Below are positions 4,059-21,847 of a DNA stretch of 21,847 bases, piece after piece (position 1 is the first letter of the stretch; every line of letters starts with the position of its first letter). The position numbers were made by a program, and so were the translations under genes. The notes under the pieces were generated by a model that worked only from the letters and a program-made list of their open reading frames with translations, was not told the DNA's origin and ran no database searches. The stretch spans positions 1 through 21,847 of the IMG/VR virus record IMGVR_UViG_3300025030_000447; one strand, given 5' to 3'. Source of the stretch: a virus.

Positions 4059-5294
4059 ATAATAGAACTAATACATATTATTAACTATATATTAGTTAAT
4101 AGTAATTATAATAAATATATAACTACTATAAATAAATATATAGACAAAGAATCTAAAGAAGTTGTATTTCTTTATACTTGTCTTAAAGAACTTCATGAGT
4201 CTTACAACAAGAACTTGTCTCTAGACGAATTCAGTCTTTATGTTCTGTCTAAGTGTTCTGACAAGGATCGTGATACCCTAGAAGCCTTGCTAATGGGTCT
4301 ACAAGAGGCTACAGTCGACGAACGGCTCATAGGTGACGTGTTGGTATCACTGAGGAACAAGAAGCTCGCCTATGACCTTGCATTGGTTTCTCTTGATGTA
4401 AGCGAAGGACGGTCATCAGTCGAGAAGATCTTTTCTACGATGGACCAGTTCGAACAGTCCACAGAAGTTGAAGAAGTTGAATTTGTATCTGGAGATTTAA
4501 ATGAACTCTACAACGAATCTGTCAAGTCCGTTGGACTTAGATGGAGACTTAACACTCTTAACCGAATGCTTGGCTCTCTTAGAAAAGGAGACTTCGGATT
4601 CATTTTTGCCCGGCCTGAAACTGGCAAGACTACATTCCTTGCGTCGGAAGTTACATTCTTTGCAGAACAGCTTACAGCAGAAAGTGGTCCTATCCTCTGG
4701 TTCAACAACGAAGAACAAGGAAACAAAGTCATGCTGCGATGTATCCAAGCAAGCCTTGGACTCTCAGCAGTTGACTTGTTCGCAAACCTCAATGCAAATC
4801 AATCTGCCTTTGATAGTCGAGGTGGGCAGTTCATTAAAATCTTCGATTCCGCCAGCATACATCGAAGACAGGTTGAATCACTTTGCAAGGAGCTTAACCC
4901 ATCCCTTGTTATTTTTGACACGATTGACAAAATCAAAGGATTCGATAATGAGCGTGAAGACCTACGACTGGGGTCAATTTATATTTGGGGCAGAGAGATT
5001 GCAAAACAGTATTGCCCAGTTATTGCCGTATGCCAAGCTGATGCTTCAGGAGAAGGAAAGCGGTGGCTAACTATGGAGAATGTAGCCAATGCAAAAACTA
5101 GTAAACAAGCAGAGGCGGACTTCATCCTTGGCATAGGAAAGACGCATGATACAGCCTTGGAATATGTGCGCCACTTTCACTTGTCTAAGAACAAGCTGGC
5201 TGGTGATAGTGACACTGACCCAACTATGCGTCATGGCAAGGCTGACGTTTTGATTGAACCTTTGATTGCCCGTTATAAGGACGTGGAATTTTGA
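4059..5294 (+). CDS. Replicative DNA helicase, DnaB/T7 gp4B type (SF4)
   Basis: Hexameric helicase that unwinds the fork. The nucleotide-binding motif is ARPETGKTTF (Walker A Lys about residue 190 from this start); ILWFNNEEQ, the Walker B strand LVIFDTIDKI and the H4-like segment VIAVCQADASGEG follow in the SF4 order. The first ordinary start codon, TTG 4215, has no Shine-Dalgarno and would remove about 50 residues. The frame is open back to 4047 with plausible N-terminal sequence (KYIDKESKEVVFLYTCLKELHE), and AAAGGAG at 4045-4051 precedes ATT ATA ATA ATA. I therefore place the start at ATA 4059 (7-nt spacing), tentatively; no ATG, GTG, TTG or CTG exists in frame upstream of 4215. The 3' end overlaps the next gene as TTGA. 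Confidence 0.85.
   Translation: MIELIHIINYILVNSNYNKYITTINKYIDKESKEVVFLYTCLKELHESYNKNLSLDEFSLYVLSKCSDKDRDTLEALLMGLQEATVDERLIGDVLVSLRNKKLAYDLALVSLDVSEGRSSVEKIFSTMDQFEQSTEVEEVEFVSGDLNELYNESVKSVGLRWRLNTLNRMLGSLRKGDFGFIFARPETGKTTFLASEVTFFAEQLTAESGPILWFNNEEQGNKVMLRCIQASLGLSAVDLFANLNANQSAFDSRGGQFIKIFDSASIHRRQVESLCKELNPSLVIFDTIDKIKGFDNEREDLRLGSIYIWGREIAKQYCPVIAVCQADASGEGKRWLTMENVANAKTSKQAEADFILGIGKTHDTALEYVRHFHLSKNKLAGDSDTDPTMRHGKADVLIEPLIARYKDVEF
4079..4101. repeat. Perfect inverted repeat in an A+T-rich tract
   Basis: TATTAACTA (4079-4087) and TAGTTAATA (4093-4101) form perfect 9-bp arms around a 5-base loop TATAT. It sits in a tract (4031-4140) where 99 of 110 bases are A or T. It could be an operator, an easily melted element near a replication origin, or an mRNA hairpin in the start region of the helicase gene. 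The same bases also remain open in the helicase frame, so it is not simply non-coding. Confidence 0.5.
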
Positions 5295-6207: not shown

Positions 6208-7350
6208 ATGGCAATAGTAGTATTCGACTTCGAGGGGGGCACGAGGAACAAGTGCAATGTGCACGATCCGCAAACCTATGTGTGTCTTTTGTGCCTAAAG
6301 ATCATTTCAGGAAACTCCGTGAAGTCATTGAGTTTCAAAAAGCCATGGGACGTTGGCCGTATAAATGAGATACTTACTTCTGCTGAACTTCTTGTTGGCT
6401 TTAATATCAAGTTTGATCTGTCTTGGGCTAGGCGTGAGTTTGGGTTTATCCCTACTTTCGGGACTCGTATTTATGATTGTCAGTATGCCGAGTTTCTATT
6501 TAGTTCACAAACATGGAGGTTCCCAGACTTGCGAACTTCCTGTGAAAGGCATGGACTTGGAGAAAAGTATGACTACATTGCGGAAAATTATTGGAACAAA
6601 GGCATAGATACTTGCGATATTCCTGAAGATGAATTAGAGGAATATTGTATTCAAGACGTAGAAATTACACATCAACTCTACGAAACTCAGATGAAGATGT
6701 TCTCTAATGAGTTTAGTGGAATGTATAAGCTGTTCCGTTTGCACATGCTTGACCTGCCTGTGCTGCTAGACATGGAATGGAATGGTCTTAAGTATAACAA
6801 AGAGAAATCCTTAAAGATTGCAGAAGAGAACGCTGCAAAGATTCAGGATATCGAAGTTAAACTAAACAATATGGTCGATTTTGAGATTAAATGGAATTCA
6901 AACAATGAAAAATCAGCTATCCTTTATGGTGGATTTGTCAGCCGCACTATTCAAGTTCCAATCGGACACTTTAAAACTGGTGCTAGAGCAGGCCAAGTCA
7001 AGTACAAAAATGTGGACTCAATCACCGAATTTCCCCAACTGGTCAAACCTCTTCAAGACTGGGGCGGGGAAGTAAATACATCGGTAGCTGAGGATGTTCT
7101 GCGATCTTTGAAACCTAACAAGTATGCAAAGAAAGTGATTGACCTAATCCTTGAACGAGCAAAGATGGAAAAACTCAACGGGACATATCTCTTGGGCCTA
7201 CCTAAGAAGCTTGATCAGATGGGTTGGGGTGATATACTACATCCAAGCTACAACAACTGCGTGGCGGTGACAGGACGGGTTGCTAGTAGTAACCCCAATG
7301 GTCAGAATATTCCCGCAGTAGGCAAGCAACTATGTGAGAGTAGGTTCTAA
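6208..7350 (+). CDS. Family A DNA polymerase, N-terminal part (3'-5' exonuclease and thumb)
   Basis: A 380-residue protein holding the proofreading half of a T7-like polymerase. Exo I is FDFEG (D7, E9), Exo II is GFNIKFD (N66, D70), Exo III is YCIQD (Y146, D150): all four acidic residues are present. It continues through the thumb into the start of the palm, with TGR at 355-357 and NPNGQNIP at 362-369, and then stops eleven residues later. Motifs A, B and C are in the next gene, which begins at the A of this gene's TAA (TAATG). The two products should together form one polymerase; alternatively a one-base indel has split a single gene. ATG directly follows the RNA ligase stop. Confidence 0.88.
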   Translation: MAIVVFDFEGGTRNKCNVHDPQTYVCLLCLKIISGNSVKSLSFKKPWDVGRINEILTSAELLVGFNIKFDLSWARREFGFIPTFGTRIYDCQYAEFLFSSQTWRFPDLRTSCERHGLGEKYDYIAENYWNKGIDTCDIPEDELEEYCIQDVEITHQLYETQMKMFSNEFSGMYKLFRLHMLDLPVLLDMEWNGLKYNKEKSLKIAEENAAKIQDIEVKLNNMVDFEIKWNSNNEKSAILYGGFVSRTIQVPIGHFKTGARAGQVKYKNVDSITEFPQLVKPLQDWGGEVNTSVAEDVLRSLKPNKYAKKVIDLILERAKMEKLNGTYLLGLPKKLDQMGWGDILHPSYNNCVAVTGRVASSNPNGQNIPAVGKQLCESRF

Positions 7351-8069
7351 TGCCAATCGTGAACACAGACGCCAAGGCTCTGGAATGGGCAACATATCTC
7401 CACCTAAGTCAAGACAAGACCGGGATTGAAGAGTGGTGTGCAATGATCGAAAATCCCAAGCTGAATGACATTCACACTGCGAATCAGCAAAGATTCAACT
7501 TACCATCACGACTGATATCGAAGGTATTTTTGTTCAGGTGGATTTATCGCGGACCTGCCTTTGCATATTGTCATGACCCGGACTTCATGCCAGTGTCGAA
7601 GTCACAAAAGTTCTGGCAGGATGTGATTGACCAGTACTATACCAAGTATAAAGGATTGTACGCCACTCACATGAAGTATTTGCAAGAAGTCAATATGACT
7701 GGACAATTGACCTCACCACTTGGTCGTAACTATAAGTTCAATAAGAATCGTAAAGGAGAATTCTCTGAGTATGAAATTACCAACTACCCTAATCAAGGGC
7801 TTGGAGCGGATATTTGTGCTGTTGCTAGGGTTAGTCTTGCTGCCCGTTTTTCTAAGTATAAGTTGCGTAGCTTACTTATTAGCACTATTCATGATAGTCT
7901 TACATCAGACTCACCCCCAGACGAGGTGGAGACAGTTAAAGAACTTATGGTAGGGGTATTCAAGGATCTTCCGCGCAATATCGAGAAAGCCTATGGAATT
8001 CGTTGGGATCTACCCATGCTCGGCGAGGTTAGTGTAGGTCCGAATATGAAAGATCTTGTGGAGGTATAA
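7350..8069 (+). CDS. Family A DNA polymerase, C-terminal part (polymerase motifs A, B, C)
   Basis: A 239-residue protein carrying the synthesis centre. Motif A is VNTDAKALEW (Asp7); the O-helix motif B is R54-x3-K58-x3-F62-x3-Y66 in RLISKVFLFRWIYRG, with Phe at the position that in E. coli Pol I is F762; a second part of the palm reads GLGADIC; motif C is IHDSL (His181-Asp182-Ser183), where T7 and Pol I have HDE. It starts abruptly two codons before the motif A strand, so it cannot fold without the product of the gene upstream. ATG 7350 overlaps that gene's stop by one base; AGG at 7342-7344 is a weak ribosome site, fitting termination-reinitiation. No upstream start is possible because TAG at 7341 closes the frame. 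Confidence 0.88.
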   Translation: MPIVNTDAKALEWATYLHLSQDKTGIEEWCAMIENPKLNDIHTANQQRFNLPSRLISKVFLFRWIYRGPAFAYCHDPDFMPVSKSQKFWQDVIDQYYTKYKGLYATHMKYLQEVNMTGQLTSPLGRNYKFNKNRKGEFSEYEITNYPNQGLGADICAVARVSLAARFSKYKLRSLLISTIHDSLTSDSPPDEVETVKELMVGVFKDLPRNIEKAYGIRWDLPMLGEVSVGPNMKDLVEV

Positions 8070-8070
8070 T

Positions 8071-8628
8071 TTGAGTAAGATAACACCAGAACAAACAGAA
8101 GAAATTCTTCAGTTACTTTCAGGTCTTTCTACTTATAAACAAATTGCAGATCAATTTGGATTATCGAGGGAACGTGTACGACAGATTGCAAAATCTCAGG
8201 GGTTACATGGGTTAGCAATGAAAAAACGGCGAAACCTACGCAATCATAATTTAACAACTCGACTTAAAGAAATCTACGGTCAGTTTTATGAAAATGGGAT
8301 TGTGGATAAAGGAGATTTCCTAGATATTTGTAAACATAAGTTTACAAATAAAAAGAGTGTTGCAAAAAATCGAGATGCTCAAAGCTGGACAATTCAATTC
8401 TGTGATGTTAAGTGGAATACACATTGTCCCATTCTTGGAATGGAATTAAACTACTATGCAGAAAGTCGCCAAGAAAATTCACCTTCTTTTGATCGTATAG
8501 ACAACACAAAAGGATATGTTCCTGGGAATGTTCAGATTATCTCTTGGAGGGCAAATAGAATCAAGAATAATGGCACCAGTGATGAGCACTTTCAGATTGC
8601 CAAATATCTAAAAAGTATTGGGAATTAA
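8071..8628 (+). CDS. HNH-type endonuclease with N-terminal helix-turn-helix
   Basis: A 185-residue putative homing endonuclease. I choose TTG 8071 because GGAGGT at 8060-8065 gives 5-nt spacing; the frame extends slightly upstream into the polymerase gene. The N-terminus is a sigma-region-4-like helix-turn-helix (TYKQIADQFGLSRERVRQIA, about residues 21-40), a likely DNA-recognition module. The C-terminal part has H-x-CPILG, SFDRIDNTKGYVPGNVQIISWRAN-type sequence, the pattern of phage HNH nucleases in which D-R-I-D-x-x-x-G-Y-x-x-G-N-V forms the ββα-metal core. It lies between polymerase and SSB genes without interrupting either, so it appears freestanding. Confidence 0.75.
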   Translation: MSKITPEQTEEILQLLSGLSTYKQIADQFGLSRERVRQIAKSQGLHGLAMKKRRNLRNHNLTTRLKEIYGQFYENGIVDKGDFLDICKHKFTNKKSVAKNRDAQSWTIQFCDVKWNTHCPILGMELNYYAESRQENSPSFDRIDNTKGYVPGNVQIISWRANRIKNNGTSDEHFQIAKYLKSIGN

Positions 8629-9242: not shown

Positions 9243-9421
9243 TGTTAAAGCTATACGATTTCTCATGTAAGGAATGTTCACACACGTTCGAGAAATTGGC
9301 ACAGACTACACAGGGGGTGGAATGCCCTTTGTGCGGTTCTTTGCAGACTGAACGTGTACATTCGCCTACAAGCTTTAAGGTAACTGGACAAGGAACATTT
9401 GACAAACGAATGAAAGTATGA
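9242..9421 (+). CDS. Small FmdB-like zinc-ribbon protein
   Basis: A 59-residue protein that starts at the last base of the SSB stop (TAATG) and ends in an ATGA overlap with the exonuclease. It has C-x2-C (CKEC, residues 9-12) and C-x2-C (CPLC, residues 28-31) after a LYDFSCKEC start, the layout of FmdB-type zinc-ribbon proteins (Y-x-F-x-C-x-x-C-G-x-x-F-E). Its SPTSFKVTGQGTF-like tail is also common in that family. Likely a small metal-binding regulatory or scaffold protein; its position between SSB and exonuclease is suggestive, but its role is unknown. Confidence 0.7.
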   Translation: MLKLYDFSCKECSHTFEKLAQTTQGVECPLCGSLQTERVHSPTSFKVTGQGTFDKRMKV

Positions 9422-10182
9422 TAGCACTTATAGATGCGGACATCGTCTGTTACCGCGCCGCTGCAAGTTGTGAGAAACAGAAAGTTCTACAAGAGCCAGA
9501 AGAAGTGGCCATTTTGCGGGTAGAAAACCTAATGCGAGAGATTATTCAAGCCACTAAGGCCGAGTCATATCGCTGTTTTCTATCTCCAAAGAAGAACTTC
9601 CGTTATGATGTGTATCCTGATTACAAGGCAAACCGCAAAGATATAGTAGATCCTGTGCATCGACAAGCATGTAAGGATTATCTGCTCCAAGAGTGGAATG
9701 CTGAAATCTTCGACGGATGTGAGGCTGACGACGCCTTGGCATGGAGTCAGTGTGATGGGTCGGTCATTTGCTCAATCGACAAGGATTTAAAGCAAGTTGA
9801 GGGAAGACATTACAACTTTGTCAAGCAAGAATGGGACACAATAACAAAAATAAAGGGGTTACATAACTTCTATGCACAAACAATTATTGGAGATCCTTCC
9901 GATCATCTTACTGGTATTTCTGGTATTGGTCCTGTAAAGGCCGGTCGTTATCTAGAAGGTTGTTACGAAGAACAAGAAATGTTTGATACTGTTTATGACT
10001 TGTATCAAGATAAACATCAACTAGCGGTTAACCTCATGTGTATGTGGTTAATGCGAACACAAGGAGAAACATGGCTTCACAGAACGAGTGGGCTTACCTT
10101 AAACGAGTCTTTTACGGAGCTGCTGAAAGGTGTAGAAACCCAAATCACATCTCGTATAAATATTATGGCGAACGTGGAGTAG
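9418..10182 (+). CDS. 5'-3' exonuclease (FEN/T5 D15 family)
   Basis: A 254-residue flap-endonuclease-like nuclease that removes RNA primers and degrades DNA from 5' ends. Metal-binding acids are visible in order: D6 and D8 (LIDADIV), E102-D104-D105 (CEADDALAW), D121 and D123 (SIDKDL), and the helix-three-turn-helix with GDPSDHLTGISGIGP (158-172), which grips the DNA backbone. DVYPDYKANR forms the helical arch region. ATG 9418 overlaps the preceding stop (ATGA). The last 37 codons (from 10071) overlap the downstream HNH gene in another frame; they look less family-like (HRTSGLTLNESF), so the tail may be an extension created when the HNH gene inserted. Confidence 0.85.
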   Translation: MIALIDADIVCYRAAASCEKQKVLQEPEEVAILRVENLMREIIQATKAESYRCFLSPKKNFRYDVYPDYKANRKDIVDPVHRQACKDYLLQEWNAEIFDGCEADDALAWSQCDGSVICSIDKDLKQVEGRHYNFVKQEWDTITKIKGLHNFYAQTIIGDPSDHLTGISGIGPVKAGRYLEGCYEEQEMFDTVYDLYQDKHQLAVNLMCMWLMRTQGETWLHRTSGLTLNESFTELLKGVETQITSRINIMANVE

Positions 10183-10520
10183 AATTTAAGTTTAATTCTT
10201 TTAAAGAGTTTTGTGATTGTGTTGGACATAGGCCAGAAGGCCATACACTAGATCGTATAAATAACGATGGTCACTATGAGGTGGGTAATGTTAGATGGAC
10301 CACACCAAAACAACAAGTAAAGAATCAACGTAAACTTGCCAAAAGTTCTTCTGGATACTTTGGAGTATCTATTCGAAAACCTACAAAGACCCATCCATAC
10401 CTTAGATATGTAGTTAGAATTACAGAGAACTCACACAGACACTATCTATATGTAGGGAAAGATTTAGAGAAAGCAGTCTCAAGTTTAAAGGAATATTATG
10501 AAAACCAAGAAGCCAATTGA
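10071..10520 (+). CDS. HNH endonuclease with AP2-like DNA-binding domain
   Basis: A 149-residue homing-type endonuclease. ATG 10071 follows AAGGAG at 10061-10066. The N-terminal half contains AERCRNPNHISYKYYGERGV (about residues 18-37) and GHTLDRINNDGHYEVGNVRWTTPKQQ, the HNH core of phage/plastid AP2-HNH enzymes (H-x-L-D-R-I-x-x-x-G-x-Y-x-x-G-N-x-R-W). The C-terminus (SGYFGVSIRKP, RYVVRI, YVGKDLEKAVSSLKEYYE) resembles an AP2 DNA-binding domain. It overlaps the exonuclease by 112 bp at its start and the next gene by 23 bp at its end, carrying that gene's Shine-Dalgarno (AAAGGA, 10487-10492). Confidence 0.8.
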   Translation: MASQNEWAYLKRVFYGAAERCRNPNHISYKYYGERGVEFKFNSFKEFCDCVGHRPEGHTLDRINNDGHYEVGNVRWTTPKQQVKNQRKLAKSSSGYFGVSIRKPTKTHPYLRYVVRITENSHRHYLYVGKDLEKAVSSLKEYYENQEAN

Positions 10521-14199: not shown

Positions 14200-14344
14200 A
14201 AAAGCCGAGACAAGTCCTGCAAAAAAAGAGCAACTATCAAAAGAAAAACTACAACAAGCTGTTCTACATATGCTTGAAGATCGAGAATGGGAAAATGAAC
14301 GAACAGAGTACTCCATGTATCGAATGGACAAAGGCAAGGGATAA
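14177..14344 (+). CDS. Small basic protein, 3' end overlapped by an HNH gene
   Basis: A possible 55-residue protein starting at ATG 14177, rich in Lys in the first half (TGKKAETSPAKKEQLSKEK) and then helical (LQQAVLHMLEDREWE). No clear Shine-Dalgarno precedes it. The last 17 codons overlap the HNH gene in a different frame, so the natural C-terminus may have been replaced when the HNH gene inserted. It is the best use of the 95 bp between 14199 and 14295. Confidence 0.45.
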   Translation: MTKSWTGKKAETSPAKKEQLSKEKLQQAVLHMLEDREWENERTEYSMYRMDKGKG

Positions 14345-14702
14345 AGCTGGATATGGAGTTAGTTGGATGGGTGGGAAGTTTATTCGAGCACATCGAAAAG
14401 CCTATCTTCTCCATAAGGGAGATATTCCCAAGGGGCAGGTTGTTCGGCATACATGTGACAATCGAGGTTGTGTAAATCCTACTCACCTGCTTCTTGGAAC
14501 AAACGCTGATAATTCTAAAGACATGTTAGATCGCCATCGACAAGCAAAAGGTAGTAATGTTGGAACTTCCAAACTAACTGAAGAACTTGTCACAATGATT
14601 CGTAGTATGTCTGGAAGTTCTTCCCTACTATCAGAATTCTTTAATTGCAGTCGTACAACCATTAAAGACATTAAAAATAATAAACTTTGGAGACATGTGT
14701 GA
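14295..14702 (+). CDS. HNH endonuclease with C-terminal helix-turn-helix
   Basis: About 135 residues. The HNH core is CIEWTKARDKAGYG, RAHRKAY, VVRHTCDNRGCVNPTHLLLGT: the C-x-W start, H-x-C-x-N-x-x-C-V-N-P-x-H-L block and following N-x-x-D-M-x-x-R-x-R-x-x-x-G are typical of phage HNH_3 homing endonucleases. The tail (SKLTEELVTMIRSMSG, LLSEFFNCSRTTIKDI, LWRHV) is a NUMOD/HTH-like DNA-recognition module. I prefer ATG 14295; an upstream TTG 14274 is possible. Its last codons overlap the RNR start (GTGA) and contain the RNR Shine-Dalgarno (TTTGGAG, 14687-14691). It lies next to the intron-bearing RNR gene but outside the intron. Confidence 0.8.
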   Translation: MNEQSTPCIEWTKARDKAGYGVSWMGGKFIRAHRKAYLLHKGDIPKGQVVRHTCDNRGCVNPTHLLLGTNADNSKDMLDRHRQAKGSNVGTSKLTEELVTMIRSMSGSSSLLSEFFNCSRTTIKDIKNNKLWRHV

Positions 14703-15473
14703 TTGTAAATAGATTTAAGAATTCCTTTAGTGAAAACGTATTTAACTTAAAGTACCGACAGGGCCCCTCAGATAGCTGGGATGCACTTTGTGAGAGGTTA
14801 GTTGAAGATGTTGCTGGAACTCGGTGGGGAACTGAGCGAGCTTTAATGTCTCAAGAGGATCGAGATCAATTAGTTCAGTATATGAAGGAAATGAAATTTT
14901 TGGCTGGAGGCAGGTATTTATACTATGCTGGTCGGGCTAATCATTACTATAATAATTGTTTCCTACTGCGCGCTGAGGAAGATACCCGCGAGGAATGGGC
15001 GAACATTGCCCAAAGGGCAACCTCATGTCTGATGACCGGCGGCGGCATAGGTGTGGATTATTCTATCTTACGGGCTTCTGGAAAACCCATCTCTCGTACA
15101 GGAGGCGTCTCTAGTGGCCCACTGTCCCTTATGAATATGGTTAATGAAATCGGAAGAAATGTGATGCAAGGAGGCTCAAGGCGATCCGCAATTTACGCCT
15201 CATTGAACTGGCTTCACGAAGACATCCCAAACTTCTTGACAGCGAAGAACTGGTCTCAACAGATCAAGGATCTGAAGAATGCAGACTTCAACTTTCCAGC
15301 TAGTCTGGACATGACCAACATCTCTGTCAACTACGATGACAAGTGGCTTTATAATGCAGACCGAGCAAACTTGCATACGTTTGTAGAGAATTGTCGTCAG
15401 GCGATGATGACCGGAGAACCCGGATTTAGCTTCAATTTTGGAGATAAGCAGAATGAAACCCTTCGTAATGCAT
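14699..15473 (+). CDS. Ribonucleotide reductase, B12-dependent class II type, exon 1
   Basis: The first 775 nt of an RNR gene that is continued at 16279-17144. GTG 14699 follows TTTGGAG by 7 nt and gives the N-terminus (M)IVNRFKNSFSEN. Visible signatures are FLAGGRYLYYAGR (68-80), NNCFLL with C87 as the first redox cysteine, RATSCLMTGGGIGVDY and NEIGRNVMQGGSRRSA. The exon ends in the first base of codon 259: AAT GCA T. Joined to GT ACG GAA in exon 2, it restores N-A-C-T-E, the N-x-C-x-E active-site triad with C259 as the thiyl-radical residue. RNR turns ribonucleotides into deoxyribonucleotides. No NrdB gene is adjacent, in line with class II. Without splicing the frame ends at a stop at 15494-15496. 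Confidence 0.88.
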
Positions 15474-16278
15474 CAACAAGTAGGTGCCTTCACTAAGTAA
15501 TTAGTGTCGAACAACTAATCTAAAAACAGGGAATCTCCGTTAGGACAATCCTGTGCCAATTCAGTATTGAAAGGTGCAACGACTATGAGTATTAATGAAA
15601 AACAACTTAGCAAACTTCTATATTACTTTAGTAGTTTTGATGGTGGTGTTTATCCATCCGGAAAAGAATGTCGCTATGTAATGAATATGCGGGAAGACAA
15701 CCTAGATTACATTTCTTGGGTTGAGTCTGTTATTAATGAATTCACTTCTACTAACAAACACAACATCATCCAACGTGGGAATCGCTCCCCACTTGTATGT
15801 TTAACTTCTAAAATCCATCCCAAGTTCTCAGCTATTCGAGAACGGTTATACACACCAGATGGTAAAAAGATTCTTGATCCACATCAATTAACTCTTCTAG
15901 ATGCAGAAGCTTTAGCCATTATATTTATGGCTGATGGTGGAACATCAGTGGACCAGAGATGGAACAAGTATCCTGAAATTAAACTGCATACAAAAGGTTA
16001 TAGTTACTTTGATAATTTGGCACTAAGTAAAGCAATTTATGAAAAGACTGGTATTCGTACAACAGTAAATAGACATAATCAATATTACTTCTTACGAGTT
16101 AAATCAGCAGACATTGAGTTGTTTATTGCTACAGTTCTACCTTTTGTTCTTCCAAGTTTTTCATACAAACTCGAACGATTAGCCCCAGTAATGGGTGGTG
16201 ATATAGTCTGTGCTGTAGAGCAATCTACAGAGGTTAGCAGAAATGACTAACCCCTACATTAGTAGAGTAACAATTCAG
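15474..16278 (+). ncRNA. Group I self-splicing intron in the RNR gene
   Basis: An 805-nt intron. The 5' exon ends in T and the intron ends in G, as group I rules require. Visible helices: P1, 5' exon GCAT with GTGC at 15484-15487 (terminal U-G pair); P2, CACTAA-GTAA-TTAGTG at 15491-15506, a perfect hairpin with a GNRA loop; P4, ACAGG 15526-15530 with CCTGT 15550-15554; P5, TCC-GTTA-GGA at 15536-15545; P7, GACTAT 15581-15586 with ATAGTC 16203-16208, inside the conserved AACGACTA and GATATAGTC elements; P9, CTGTAGA-GCAA-TCTACAG at 16213-16230, another GNRA hairpin; P9.1, GGTTAG 16232-16237 with CTAACC 16247-16252. The endonuclease ORF sits between the two P7 strands. Excision restores the RNR frame exactly. 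Confidence 0.9.
15585..16250 (+). CDS. LAGLIDADG homing endonuclease encoded in the intron
   Basis: A 221-residue protein in the intron. ATG 15585 follows AAAGGTG (15570-15576) and lies inside the 5' P7 strand. The second LAGLIDADG-like motif is plain: LDAEALAIIFMADGGTS at about residues 100-116, with the catalytic Asp in the MADGG end. The first is degenerate, KLLYYFSSFDGGVYP at about 10-24. The rest (YFDNLALSKAIYEKTGI, YYFLRVKSADIELFI, PSFSYKL) fits the intron-encoded LAGLIDADG type, which cuts intronless RNR alleles to spread the intron and may help folding. The coding end runs through P7 3', P9 and into P9.1, so protein and ribozyme share sequence. Confidence 0.85.
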   Translation: MSINEKQLSKLLYYFSSFDGGVYPSGKECRYVMNMREDNLDYISWVESVINEFTSTNKHNIIQRGNRSPLVCLTSKIHPKFSAIRERLYTPDGKKILDPHQLTLLDAEALAIIFMADGGTSVDQRWNKYPEIKLHTKGYSYFDNLALSKAIYEKTGIRTTVNRHNQYYFLRVKSADIELFIATVLPFVLPSFSYKLERLAPVMGGDIVCAVEQSTEVSRND

Positions 16279-17144
16279 GTACGGAAGTTACAAGTGAAGA
16301 TGATTCTGACGTATGTAATCTTGGCTCAATCAATATCAGCAATATTACTAGTCTGGAAGAGTTCCAGCACGTTGTTGAGCTTGGATCTAAGTTTCTGGTG
16401 TGTGGAACCCTCCGCGCGGACCTGCCGTATGAAAAAGTTTATAAAGTACGGGAAAAGAATCGGCGATTGGGACTGGGCCTCATGGGGATACATGCATGGC
16501 TCCTCCAACGAGGACAAGGCTACGAAGTAACACCCGAACTTCACGAATGGTTAAAGGTATATAAAGATGAATCAGAACGAGCAGCAAACGAGCATTGTGA
16601 GCGTTTGTATATCTCGAAACCGGTTGCTTACCGAGCTATTGCACCAACGGGAAGTATTGGAATTTTATCAGGAACGACGACTGGTATTGAGCCGCTGTTC
16701 GCAGTTGCCTATAAACGACGTTATCTCACAGATGGAACCAAATGGAAGTATGAATATGTCGTTGATACCACAGCAGATCAACTCATCAAAGAGTTCGGAC
16801 TCGACCCCAGCAAAATCGAAACAGCCTACGGACTAAGTCATGACTATGAAAAACGACTCAAGTTCCAAGCAGATATTCAAGATTATGTTGACATGTCAAT
16901 CTCCAGTACCATTAACCTCCCTTCATGGGGGTCTAAAGGTAATGCAGAGCAAGACGTTGGGCGATTTGCTGAAACACTTAGCAAGTATGCACCACGACTA
17001 CGTGGATTTACGTGTTATCCAGACGGAAGTCGAGGAGGTCAACCTCTAACAGAAGTTCCATATGAAGAAGCAATCAAGCATAAAGGAATTGTCTATGAAG
17101 AGAATATTGATCGTGCTTGCGTTTCCGGCGTCTGCGGAATATAA
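16279..17144 (+). CDS. Ribonucleotide reductase, class II type, exon 2
   Basis: The last 866 nt of the RNR gene; with exon 1 they give 547 codons, a 546-residue protein. It begins with the last two bases of the catalytic Cys codon, followed by TEVTSEDDSDVCNLGSIN, where C271 is the second redox cysteine partnering C87. RRLGLGLMGIHAW, the APTGSIGILSGTTTGIEP phosphate-binding loop, and NLPSWGS continue the ten-stranded barrel. The end has C539-x4-C544 (DRACVSGVCGI), the shuttle cysteines that re-reduce the active site as in Lactobacillus RTPR. At 546 residues it is shorter than the 739 of RTPR. ORFs beginning at internal ATGs (for example 16398) are only parts of this exon. Confidence 0.88.
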
Positions 17145-17660: not shown

Positions 17661-18070
17661 GATAGAAATAGTTTCTTCTCAGCGGCGCGTCTTGCAATGA
17701 GACCATTAAGCTTTTTCCCACCGCTAAACACCCACTTATCAAATTCCTCAGCAGCACCCTTGTAGTCGCCTTGATTGAGTTTCTTTCTTAGGGTTGACCC
17801 CATGAGCTTACCTTGACCAAGATTGAACACGAAGCTCGTCAGAGCACCTAGCTGGTTCTCATTCAAGGGAACAGAAATTAGGAAGTTGACAGCAACTTCA
17901 GCTTCCTGATAGTCATGGTCCAGTAAAACCTCTGCCTCAGCGACAGAGATCTTACGGTCCAATTTTACTCCATACGTATGTCCATATCCAATGGTAGGAA
18001 CTCCGGCAGGACATAGATAAGACTCTAAGCGCAAACCTTCGAATTTCCTGATTAGTTCTTTACCGTCCAT
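17657..18070 (-). CDS. Endolysin, GH24 lysozyme (muramidase)
   Basis: A 137-residue T4-lysozyme-like enzyme cleaving the MurNAc-GlcNAc bond of peptidoglycan. The catalytic site is E11, C20 and T26 in KFEGLRLESYLCPAGVPTIGYGHT-type sequence: E-x8-C-x5-T instead of T4's E-x8-D-x5-T, a variant common in phage endolysins. FVFNLGQGKLMGSTL, GDYKGAAEEFDKWVFSGGK and GLIARRAAEKKLF match the C-terminal lobe. The N-terminus has no signal peptide or SAR-type helix, so release needs a holin. The ATG at 18070 lies within the end of the large virion gene (11-bp overlap), with AGGA just upstream; a longer TTG-started version (18094) is less likely. Confidence 0.9.
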   Translation of the reverse strand: MDGKELIRKFEGLRLESYLCPAGVPTIGYGHTYGVKLDRKISVAEAEVLLDHDYQEAEVAVNFLISVPLNENQLGALTSFVFNLGQGKLMGSTLRKKLNQGDYKGAAEEFDKWVFSGGKKLNGLIARRAAEKKLFLS

Positions 18071-21000
18071 ACTTTTCCTGCCTTTCTCTTGCACGATTAA
18101 TAATACCAGACAAGTCCTTGATGTTATCTACATCACTGAGTTTAGCACCCTTGACACGAACAAGCTTACGCAAGGCTTCTGCTGGTAAGCCATAGCTTTC
18201 AGCAGTAGACTCAATACGTTTCTGTACTTGGTCTTCGTCAATGTGCCAATCTACAATCAAAGACTTAATCTGTTGAGCTACAGGAGAGTCATTAAGAAGT
18301 TCTTCTCCACGTTTACCACTCTTGATGGAGGCTACAAGAATCTTCTCTAGTTTGATTAACTGTTCCTTCTGACTAGCACCGAGGTTCTTCTGTGTCTTGA
18401 AATAATTACCTGTGTCAGCCTGAGCCATTGTTTCAGCAAGACCTCTCACACCAAATCCATGTTTGGAGATTTGCTGTTCTTTATCAGTGCGCTGATACAT
18501 AGGAAGACCGGCACGTTCCGCACTAGGATCATAGACAATATTATCTTTGTTATGAAACCTGTTACGAATGCTCTGAGTGAGAAACTTAGGACTAACACCT
18601 TCAATAATAGTACCACGATCTTTCTGAGACAATTCAGAATTCAATAGCAGAGGTGCTTTTACAGCGGCCTTGGTTAGTTGAAGCGACGCCATTGTCTTTG
18701 GGAACATATTGTCAATGAAGGTACGATCTGGATCAATTACCTTAGTTGTAAATGAACCATACAAACCAAGATCAGTAGAAGCAGATAGAGGACCAACACT
18801 GACGGCTTCAGGAGTATTCTCCATTAGCCACTGACGCAAACTGAACTTCTGCAACTCAGGTGAATCTGCCTTAGTGCCACGAGCACCTATCTTAAGACCA
18901 TCCAACAACCAGTCTGCCAAGTCGGCACCAATGAACCCAACAGCACCTCCAAGAGAGAAGGTAATGGCTAGGTATGTGAGCAATGGTCCTGCCTGCTTAC
19001 CACCACTCTCAGCAGCAAGTTTGCCATACCGAGCAAGCTGTGTGTAGTAGTTAATCATGAAGGTATGCAATCCACGAGCCTCTTGTCCAACAAGACCCAT
19101 ATTAGCAAGTCCCATAGCACCAGCTTCAGGATTATAATTCACCATAGTATCCATCTGCTCTCTTCCAAGTTTGATAGCATCTTCAATCTTGTACCCATCT
19201 TTCACTGCCTGCCTCACAAATGAGCTAAACGCCCATGTGCGAGTCGGACCTTCAAATAGATTCATTGGAGCGTCCAAGAAACCTTCAGCGGCAGCATTCC
19301 CCCAAGACTTCCAAAAACCACCTTCTTTAGAAACACCTGTATCAGATAGAGACATACGTGCAACGTCAAGATCACGAATGGCTTGATGAATAGCTTGAGT
19401 AGTAGGTGAGAAATCACCATCGACTTTCTGCATCAAGTCACGAGACAACTTTTCAAATTTACCTTGTGTGACAGTATTCGCCAACTGGAACATACCATCC
19501 ATAGAACCTTGTGCTAGTGACGTGGCTACGTGAACATAGTCACCACCATACTGCTTACGCATCTCAATCATTCGTGGAATGGTAGCTTGTCCAACCTGCA
19601 AGACTGACTGGACAGCTTGTGTTCCCTTAAGAGCAAGTAGGTATGGCAGAGTCACACGACTAAAGAAGTGTTGTGTGGTAGTAGTACCACGACGAACTGC
19701 TCCAATATTCTTAGGAGAAATATCCTCCAGATAGTCCATAAACTTGGTGATTGCTGAGGTGTCGATATTCTTACCCAGAGCATGGTCAACAAACTTCTGT
19801 CCTAGTGAGAGAGCACCACCAACATGAATCTTACCATCTTGCTGTGCCTTAAGAACAGGTTCCATCTGCTGGCGAATTTCCTGTGCAGCAATCCACTGAT
19901 AGCCTGCGTCAAACTTAGTACGAACAGTGTCAATAGAGTCTGCATAGTTTCGTGCTTCAGTCATCCAGGGCTTGTTACCTTGGAAACCTTGCACACCTGC
20001 GCGGAACTTCTGACGATTCTGTTCACCAAGGTGACGTTCTTGCAAACCTTGAACACGTTCCTTGAATGCTTGTAGTGCTTCTGCAACTGCTGGATCAGTG
20101 TTATTGGTTAGTTCAAGTAGATGGTCAAACATACTAGACCTGCCACGGGCATCAGACTTAACGAACTTAATCTCAGATGCTTTGGTAGTATCTACATTTG
20201 GGATGTTTTCCTGAATCCATGTCAATGCCTTTTTGGCATCTCCAATTGTCTTTTCAGACACAAAGAAACCTAACCTAGAACCACCACCCTCTGTCTTCAC
20301 ATAGACATAGGCGCGGTATGGCCCAGACCAATAATGGACCATGTGGTTGTCAATATTGGTAATTGGTTTCTTTCCATCCTTAGCCAGCACTTCATTCATC
20401 TTAGCAAGTAGCTGCTCATCCCCCCTATTCAAAGCTTCATGAATCTTCTTCACAGCAGGACTGAAAGTTTCAGGTAGAACTTCACCAGAACCTTCGTTCT
20501 TAAAGCGCCACTGGAAGTAGGAACGCATCTCAGCTTCGCCACCCTTATGGAACATAACCTGCTTACGGATCATTGGAATGATTCCAGTACCAGTGTCATC
20601 TAGGATTTTGCGTGCTTGAATACGACCATTCTCAACAGCCTTGTTAGTCAAGTTATATACCCAAGTAACAGCAGGATGATTCAACAGATCGCGCTGAAGT
20701 CGGCCAGAGGAACCAAACTGTTCCTTGAGCAATCCACGATTGGTAATATCTGGAACAGTAGAGAGAACTTCAACAGCTTTCTCAGGAGTCCAAACTTCAC
20801 CTGTGTATTTAGGATCAAGACCAGCCAAGTCCTTAGCAATCTTAGACTGCGTAGTTGCCATTTTCTGATTAGTAATTGCATTACCAGACTGCTTCTGCTT
20901 CTCTTCCCAGAGTTTAGTTAGTTCAGCTTCAGTAACATTAGGTACTTCCTTACGCAGATTCTCAGCGAACTTTTCGTAAGGATCTTTACCGAAAAAACCA

Positions 21001-21847
21001 ATTGAACCTTTTTGACCTTTGCCAAACTTAGACTGACCTAAGACAGACACATTACCAAGAACTGCGTTAATCTCTTTTAGAGTTTGGCGATCATATTTAG
21101 AACGTGGATTTAGTGTCTTTTTATATTCTTCAATTCCTTGAATGTACTCTTTAAATGCCTGCTCAATTTGAGGTGTGTTTCTAACTGTGTGGCTAAGATT
21201 TGAACCCGCTATGGATCTACCTTGATCTTCTGACAGTCTATGTCCTAATGGATGTTTGGCTGTTGGATCTCCATAGGTAAATGTTTGTACATCTTTCCAA
21301 AGACTATTAGCTTCTCTATAGGCATCTTCCATCTTCATAACAAGCTCATAAGGAATTCGCTCATGAGCAAGAGTTTCTTGTAGCTTTTGAACTTTATCAT
21401 ACAGAGGACGAACAGTCTTCATCCAGCCTAATGAATCTAAGGCTGCTTTTGAATGTTCAACATTTCGACTAGCTTCTAGATCTTTGATGATTTGTTTTGT
21501 TTGAGCTTCCTCTTCTCGGATAAGTTGACGCTCACGCTCTTTTCCAAAAGAGAAATCTATTGATCCACGTTGACTGCCTCCAACCCGAGTTTGACCCCAA
21601 GGCTTTTCTACTTCAACTGAACGCTGACTAGGTTCAACAACAGGTTCTTCTTTAATTAAAGTGTCCTGCGCAGCTTTCTGTTGATATGCTAGTTCTTCTT
21701 CCTGCTTGCGCAGATAGTCCCTTGAACCGGGAACACCTTCTTCACCCGCTTTAGCGTTGTTCAGAACGTCATTACGAAGCTCAGTTGCTTGATTCTCGTA
21801 GCTGAATAGATCACCCTGCCTGACAGTCTCCTGAGCCTCTAGAGAGG
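18060..21847 (-). CDS. Very large internal virion / DNA-ejection type protein, N-terminus outside window
   Basis: The frame is open from the right edge to TAA at 18060-18062, giving at least 1261 residues; the first ATG inside (21422) is only an internal Met, because the 141 codons upstream are also open and protein-like (QGDLFSYENQ, KPWGQTRVGGSQRGSIDFSFG). There are long Gln/Lys/Glu-rich helical stretches and a conspicuous hydrophobic stretch (LLTYLAITFSLGGAVGFIGADLADWLL) at about 18900-18990. Size, composition and place among late genes fit the inner-core/ejection proteins of podoviruses (T7 gp16 type) or large polyvalent proteins injected with the DNA; no enzyme motif was found. GSIDFSFG resembles sequences of polyvalent-protein linkers. 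Function is inferred. Confidence 0.65.
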   Translation of the reverse strand, partial: SLEAQETVRQGDLFSYENQATELRNDVLNNAKAGEEGVPGSRDYLRKQEEELAYQQKAAQDTLIKEEPVVEPSQRSVEVEKPWGQTRVGGSQRGSIDFSFGKERERQLIREEEAQTKQIIKDLEASRNVEHSKAALDSLGWMKTVRPLYDKVQKLQETLAHERIPYELVMKMEDAYREANSLWKDVQTFTYGDPTAKHPLGHRLSEDQGRSIAGSNLSHTVRNTPQIEQAFKEYIQGIEEYKKTLNPRSKYDRQTLKEINAVLGNVSVLGQSKFGKGQKGSIGFFGKDPYEKFAENLRKEVPNVTEAELTKLWEEKQKQSGNAITNQKMATTQSKIAKDLAGLDPKYTGEVWTPEKAVEVLSTVPDITNRGLLKEQFGSSGRLQRDLLNHPAVTWVYNLTNKAVENGRIQARKILDDTGTGIIPMIRKQVMFHKGGEAEMRSYFQWRFKNEGSGEVLPETFSPAVKKIHEALNRGDEQLLAKMNEVLAKDGKKPITNIDNHMVHYWSGPYRAYVYVKTEGGGSRLGFFVSEKTIGDAKKALTWIQENIPNVDTTKASEIKFVKSDARGRSSMFDHLLELTNNTDPAVAEALQAFKERVQGLQERHLGEQNRQKFRAGVQGFQGNKPWMTEARNYADSIDTVRTKFDAGYQWIAAQEIRQQMEPVLKAQQDGKIHVGGALSLGQKFVDHALGKNIDTSAITKFMDYLEDISPKNIGAVRRGTTTTQHFFSRVTLPYLLALKGTQAVQSVLQVGQATIPRMIEMRKQYGGDYVHVATSLAQGSMDGMFQLANTVTQGKFEKLSRDLMQKVDGDFSPTTQAIHQAIRDLDVARMSLSDTGVSKEGGFWKSWGNAAAEGFLDAPMNLFEGPTRTWAFSSFVRQAVKDGYKIEDAIKLGREQMDTMVNYNPEAGAMGLANMGLVGQEARGLHTFMINYYTQLARYGKLAAESGGKQAGPLLTYLAITFSLGGAVGFIGADLADWLLDGLKIGARGTKADSPELQKFSLRQWLMENTPEAVSVGPLSASTDLGLYGSFTTKVIDPDRTFIDNMFPKTMASLQLTKAAVKAPLLLNSELSQKDRGTIIEGVSPKFLTQSIRNRFHNKDNIVYDPSAERAGLPMYQRTDKEQQISKHGFGVRGLAETMAQADTGNYFKTQKNLGASQKEQLIKLEKILVASIKSGKRGEELLNDSPVAQQIKSLIVDWHIDEDQVQKRIESTAESYGLPAEALRKLVRVKGAKLSDVDNIKDLSGIINRARERQEKYGR

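Follow-up and report, generated by a model that had tools for sequence, protein, structure and literature searches.

The virus DNA analysed here (the window; all 21,847 nucleotides of IMG/VR record IMGVR_UViG_3300025030_000447) encodes a helicase, a family A DNA polymerase, an exonuclease, the thymidylate synthase ThyX, a ribonucleotide reductase (RNR) and an endolysin, and this phage RNR gene is interrupted within the codon of the catalytic cysteine, which raises the question of what kind of element occupies this codon and how it came to be there. The RNR is encoded by two exons on the plus strand, as are all features of the interrupted gene described below: a 5' exon (14699-15473), which runs from a GTG start to base 1 of codon 259, and a 3' exon (16279-17144), which runs from bases 2 and 3 of this codon to the stop. 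Both match PF02867 (E 3e-21 and 1e-25, respectively); the 5' exon also matched phage RNR families and can be aligned with Thermotoga NrdJ, and the 3' exon is 76-93% identical to 80 viral homologues. The intervening 805 nt (15474-16278) lie between bases 1 and 2 of the Cys259 codon (T|GT), with the 5' exon ending in ...CGT-AAT-GCA-T (15473), the 3' exon starting with GT-ACG-GAA, and a G as the last intron base (16278), which is also found in relatives with clean 3' junctions. An earlier sequence-only reading had proposed that the 5' exon ends in T and the intron in G, and that excision of this segment joins T and GT to TGT and restores the motif N-x-C-x-E. This description proved accurate, as the joined exons form one reading frame (...LRNACTEVTSEDD...) with N257-A-C259-T-E261 and as an alignment of intronless homologues, suggested by that reading as a check, found 77 of 77 scored IMG/VR sequences contiguous at the junction, all of them keeping the motif as LRNACTEVT.

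The joined-exon protein has its best solved relatives in the B12-dependent NrdJ of Thermotoga (E 4e-32), with Cys259 aligning on Cys322 of the NPCGE motif, and it carries both the N-x-C-x-E catalytic motif and the barrel domain (PF02867) that mark class II RNRs. Judged from its sequence, it is a class II (B12-dependent) enzyme. The cysteine of N-x-C-x-E, here Cys259, is well established as the thiyl-radical cysteine of this enzyme family. The sequence-only reading had further argued that the host gene cannot escape such an insertion by mutation, which is correct for the amino acid, since this is fixed, but not for the codons: at the 77 empty sites the cysteine is encoded by TGT in 54 and by TGC in 23, the preceding codon can be any GCN, in every homologue the intron has a guide sequence that fits the host codon, and relatives with no intron are frequent. 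A dependence of the dNTP supply on splicing, which had also been suggested, is plausible.

With regard to the nature of the inserted element, the 805 nt can be folded into a group I ribozyme. The last four bases of the 5' exon (GCAU, 15470-15473) form P1 with the internal guide sequence GUGC (15484-15487), with a U.G pair at the splice site, followed by the P2 hairpin (CACUAA-GUAA-UUAGUG, 15491-15506), the 5' strand of P3 together with P4, P5 and the P6 extension (15515-15571) and the 5' strand of P7 (GACUAU, 15581-15586). The 3' strand of P3, P8, the 3' strand of P7, P9 and P9.1 follow at 16177-16252; apart from the invariant P7, this part and the segment from P3 to the P6 extension are supported by both Rfam and covariation. 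The P9.2 hairpin (CUAC-AUUA-GUAG, 16254-16265) was recognized by eye in the window and in relatives, and P10, which by eye has at most 3 bp, was omitted from the analysis. All helices that had been read from the sequence alone, P1, P2 with its GUAA loop, P4, P7, P9 with its GCAA loop and P9.1, are thus present, in addition to P3, P5, the P6 extension, P8 and P9.2, and the core helices P3, P4, P6, P7 and P8 occur in the canonical order of group I introns. A covariance-model search, the other computational check that had been suggested, gave a divided outcome. The Rfam model RF00028 finds both ribozyme halves (33.1 bits, E 2e-6, and 20.9 bits, E 0.009), but both stay below the gathering score of 50, and a search at this threshold gave nothing in the window, because the two P7 strands are separated by an open reading frame that fills the interval between P7 and the 3' strand of P3; two close relatives, L103 (58.6 bits) and L109 (51.8 bits), pass the gathering score over their full length.

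Covariation provides further evidence for this fold. In the RNA parts of eight homologous introns (ORF omitted), ten helices with 52 pairs were counted (P1, P2, P3, P4, P5, the P6 extension, P7, P8, P9 and P9.1, with P9.2 outside the count). Standard pairs occurred in 99.5% of the cells compared to a shuffled mean of 79%, compensatory changes were found in 31 of the 52 pairs compared to 16 after shuffling, two-sided changes in 84 cells compared to 23, and the covariation score was 0.63 compared to 0.19. The observed pairing and covariation were attained by no shuffle, and sliding one strand by 1-3 bases reduced the pairing to below 42%. All six pairs of P2 show two-sided changes among the eight introns, while P7 is invariant (GACUAU/AUAGUC) and therefore adds no covariation support. 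In P1, the U.G pair at the splice site is present in all eight introns and two other pairs change on both sides, with the combinations GCA-U/GUGC in the window, GCU-U/GAGC in L043, GCG-U/GCGC in L062, L063, L082 and L084, and CCG-U/GCGG in L087 and L091. The guide sequence accordingly covaries with the host codon preceding the cysteine or, in L091, with a codon preceding phenylalanine. The earlier claim that a group I intron interrupts the codon of the catalytic cysteine is well supported by the covariation, the intronless homologues, the Rfam matches of relatives and the Thermotoga NrdJ alignment, and we interpret 15474-16278 as such an intron, which would be removed by splicing.

The ORF within the intron (15585-16250) encodes a protein of 221 amino acids with two LAGLIDADG motifs (LAGLIDADG_2, PF03161, E 3e-20). 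Neither this protein nor the spread of the intron lineage over RNR families was part of the sequence-only reading. Profile searches matched I-WcaI and I-SceI, and an AlphaFold model (pLDDT 89, pTM 0.84) found the same two enzymes as its best Foldseek matches (TM 0.74 and 0.71, respectively), which share fold and profile class with the window enzyme but only 17-20% identity over the structural alignment. In 21 sequences the acidic motif residue D117 is invariant and D19 nearly so. The model thus predicts a monomeric I-SceI-like LAGLIDADG endonuclease, which would be expected to cleave DNA. Its gene is interlocked with the ribozyme: the start codon (15585) lies inside the 5' strand of P7, and the last ~24 codons, from 16177 on, also encode the 3' strands of P3 and P7, P8, P9 and part of P9.1. 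Since the 16 C-terminal residues encoded by the ribozyme core (206-221) are predicted by AlphaFold to be disordered, and since the endonuclease ORF ends early in the region of overlap in L084 and L085 (same contigs as L107 and L119), the analysis suggests that the C-terminal tail owes its form to the RNA and not to the function of the protein.

Among close relatives of this RNR the intron is distributed patchily. Relatives with 90-93% identical 3' exons are intronless, and the more distant L043, L062, L063 and L082 carry an intron of 797-823 nt at the same base. A footprint of co-conversion was sought in the window exons and none was found, the exon DNA resembling that of intronless relatives up to the junction. 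Within this RNR type, the codon GCG before the cysteine was enriched in non-redundant carriers (four of six compared to three of 77; Fisher p 0.0003, a rough value as the sequences are related). The window endonuclease groups in a clade whose other members combine GCG with the guide GCGC, and the window has GCA and GUGC, so that its guide has most likely changed to fit its host codon. The patchiness would also be expected if a formerly active intron were now decaying, possibly still able to splice but no longer to home, and the endonucleases of L107, L119 and L123, which are shortened at the C-terminus in introns that lack P9.1 and P9.2, point in the same direction. For the window itself we consider such decay rather unlikely, as its ORF is intact, the encoded protein keeps the two acidic residues of the motifs and has a confidently predicted fold, and all core helices pair.

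To widen the view, viral contigs were scanned for a pattern that was made from the intron core only and contained no exon letters, and 32 contigs were returned. In 24 of them both junctions lie at T|GY of the catalytic cysteine codon of N-x-C-x-E, in several RNR families with the motifs NACTE, NPCAE, NPCSE, NPCGE, NPCVE and NPCCE; the family labels rest on motif and alignment, and most of the loci are metagenomic contigs. L100, with a 3' exon call of 14 residues, and L112, with no clean 3' end, match at the 5' junction only and stand outside the 24. In L097 the intron directly follows the cysteine codon, L099, L120 and L105 carry it at other positions of RNR genes, and L121 carries it in nrdB. 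The locus in L116 is not an RNR gene; there, a relative of this intron core and endonuclease (4064-4840) lies between structural-looking ORFs with no similarity to RNR. Several of the 32 are near-copies, leaving 20 non-redundant introns with both junctions called (the window and the L100 call included). Because the junction search among the scanned contigs demanded P1 pairing and an Asn codon, the P1 match in these contigs is not independent evidence, in contrast to the count in the eight introns. A corresponding scan of genome contigs gave one relative, on a contig labelled as an archaeal MAG that ends before the 3' junction.

The RNRs that share this insertion site are highly diverged; across the parts that can be aligned, the window enzyme has only 22-30% identity with the NPC types. 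Since the core pattern was built from the same intron family, the shared site partly reflects common descent and not independent insertion, and an ancestral insertion inherited vertically and followed by losses, with no horizontal transfer, would explain why most related introns occupy one site. Such an origin is very unlikely, however, in view of the pair L103 and L109, whose endonucleases are 87.8% identical and whose introns agree in 665 of 816 nt, although their RNRs are only 27.5% identical and the flanking 60 bases align at 24 of 57 and 29 of 60 positions (42-48%), so that the exons are dissimilar right up to the insertion point. The guides of these two introns differ exactly as the host codons do (CCG-U/GCGG and CCU-U/GAGG). 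An endonuclease tree likewise mixes RNR families and requires at least 14 changes of host label, all labels taken together, in a topology that has weak support for several branches and joins two long ones. The simplest reading of these sequence comparisons would be that the intron has been transferred horizontally more than once while keeping to a single codon, and because close relatives occupy the same codon in very different RNRs, the intron lineage appears to follow the RNR catalytic cysteine codon from gene to gene.

The kind of element is already known (PMC3653736, PMC2814812). Group I introns near conserved residues of an RNR large-subunit gene were described in nrdE of Staphylococcus phage Twort (PMC3653736), but these lie off the catalytic cysteine codon (SNLCCE is inside the middle exon), are associated with an HNH endonuclease and interrupt a class I RNR. 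Similarly, the T4 nrdB and nrdD introns encode endonucleases (I-TevIII and I-TevII; PMC3653736), but, compared from the literature rather than by sequence, they occupy other genes and involve other endonuclease families. The same catalytic cysteine is targeted by the bnrdE intein of SPbeta (Bacillus phage SPBc2), also a mobile self-splicing element. This intein immediately precedes the Cys of S-N-L-C-S-E, so that its end lies one base upstream from where the window gene is interrupted, but it splices at the protein level, while SPbeta's own bnrdE group I intron is at a different site. Homologues of the window intron occur in Pseudomonas phages. An insertion in the RNR large-subunit gene of SPA01 has a homologous core and a LAGLIDADG ORF with 37-47% identity and is likewise found at the catalytic cysteine (S-N-L-C-Q-E), but directly after the Cys codon (TGT|CAA in our reading), as in L097, and with a much longer P2 region. 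The nrdB insertion of HHBS10_2 and FBPa8 also has a core and a LAGLIDADG ORF homologous to those of the window, but lies in the small-subunit gene between a conserved His and Tyr (HAP-T|TC-Y in our reading); for group I introns in RNR small-subunit genes, the endonucleases have been reported to be primarily HNH and GIY-YIG enzymes (PMC8772380). The records of such cultured phages annotate the pieces as separate ORFs, and phage Aeh1 is a known case of an RNR gene that is split with no splicing involved (PMC3653736), but a gene broken by a free-standing homing endonuclease gene of the mobE type is hardly credible here, being contradicted by a complete ribozyme with strongly covarying helices that include the exon-guide P1, by an exon joining that restores an invariant motif at single-base precision, and by the catalytic cysteine, which separate translation would leave on neither fragment.

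We are highly confident that the element is a mobile group I intron with an I-SceI-like LAGLIDADG endonuclease, located at the RNR catalytic cysteine codon and belonging to a lineage that moves between RNR families. Site, fold, covariation, endonuclease fold, patchy distribution and cross-family presence were computed, and from these we infer that splicing, DNA cleavage and homing take place and that translation and folding compete. Splicing of the RNR transcript would begin with the guide GUGC pairing to the GCAU that closes the 5' exon; the core of the ribozyme (P3-P8/P4-P6, with the guanosine site in P7) would cut after the U, and the exons would then be joined at the terminal G of the intron, restoring UGU (Cys259). 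Ribosomes running from the exon into the intron would be halted by a UAA at 15494, which in the exon frame lies shortly inside the intron. Since the endonuclease start codon is in P7 and its last codons form P3', P8, P7' and P9, translating the ORF and forming the ribozyme would make rival demands on one RNA. RNR alleles with an empty site are presumably cleaved by the endonuclease around the codon of the catalytic cysteine, whereupon repair would copy the intron in, and the wider lineage seems to have kept to T|GY of N-x-C-x-E while crossing highly divergent RNR families, with a guide that fits the local codon.

Other mobile or split elements were observed in the same genes and in the window. 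In L078 (2569-3446), an RNR of this type has an apparent intein in front of a different conserved Cys (YNN|C, ~residue 87), and L082 (4078-4933; same contig as L128) has a second intron at ~residue 390 of the same RNR gene, with an HNH-like ORF and an Rfam score of 52.5 bits (L128, 8457-8722). In the 3' exon of L110 an apparent intein starts at the next conserved Cys (ANYETC), ~ten codons past the catalytic-cysteine intron, which places two kinds of element close together in one gene. In the window, a free-standing HNH endonuclease ORF (14274-14702) adjoins the intron-bearing RNR, its stop overlapping the RNR start (GTGTGA). Two further HNH or endonuclease VII-like ORFs lie directly after the polymerase (8056-8628) and across the end of the exonuclease gene 9418-10182 (10038-10520). 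The family A DNA polymerase itself consists of two overlapping ORFs (6208-7350 and 7350-8069; TAATG) split just before motif A, and because the same split is present in four of four relatives (L129-L132) it is not a sequencing error. A minus-strand ORF of 1261 amino acids (18060-21845) is open at the window end, and its part 18060-21419 (1119 amino acids) had no match in PHROGs.

Group I introns and inteins are known to favor conserved sites, with the same host-escape argument as that of the sequence-only reading (PMC2814812, PMC3984707), and for mobile introns this preference is a published statistical trend (PMC2814812). The lineage described here, for which no description was found in the openly licensed literature searched, offers a natural series for testing this trend, as it combines one intron family and one catalytic codon with several RNR families, empty sites, host codons with covarying guides and, in L103 and L109, a recent cross-family pair. 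It would allow direct tests of how introns pass from one gene to another of low similarity, and of whether host range is limited by the guide or by the endonuclease. An intron endonuclease can harm a co-infecting phage (PMC11620839). RNR genes with such introns may be missed in annotation, and in SPA01 and FBPa8 the endonuclease and pieces of the interrupted gene are labelled as hypothetical proteins. A serious possibility, which we put forward tentatively, is that the lineage has specialized on the thiyl-radical cysteine codon, moves among RNR families whose flanking DNA has almost nothing in common except AAY-NNN-TGY-NNN-GAR, and re-tunes its guide to the host codon after arrival. If true, such codon-following would point to a transfer that needs only microhomology, as in ectopic homing or reverse splicing, rather than to classical allelic homing.
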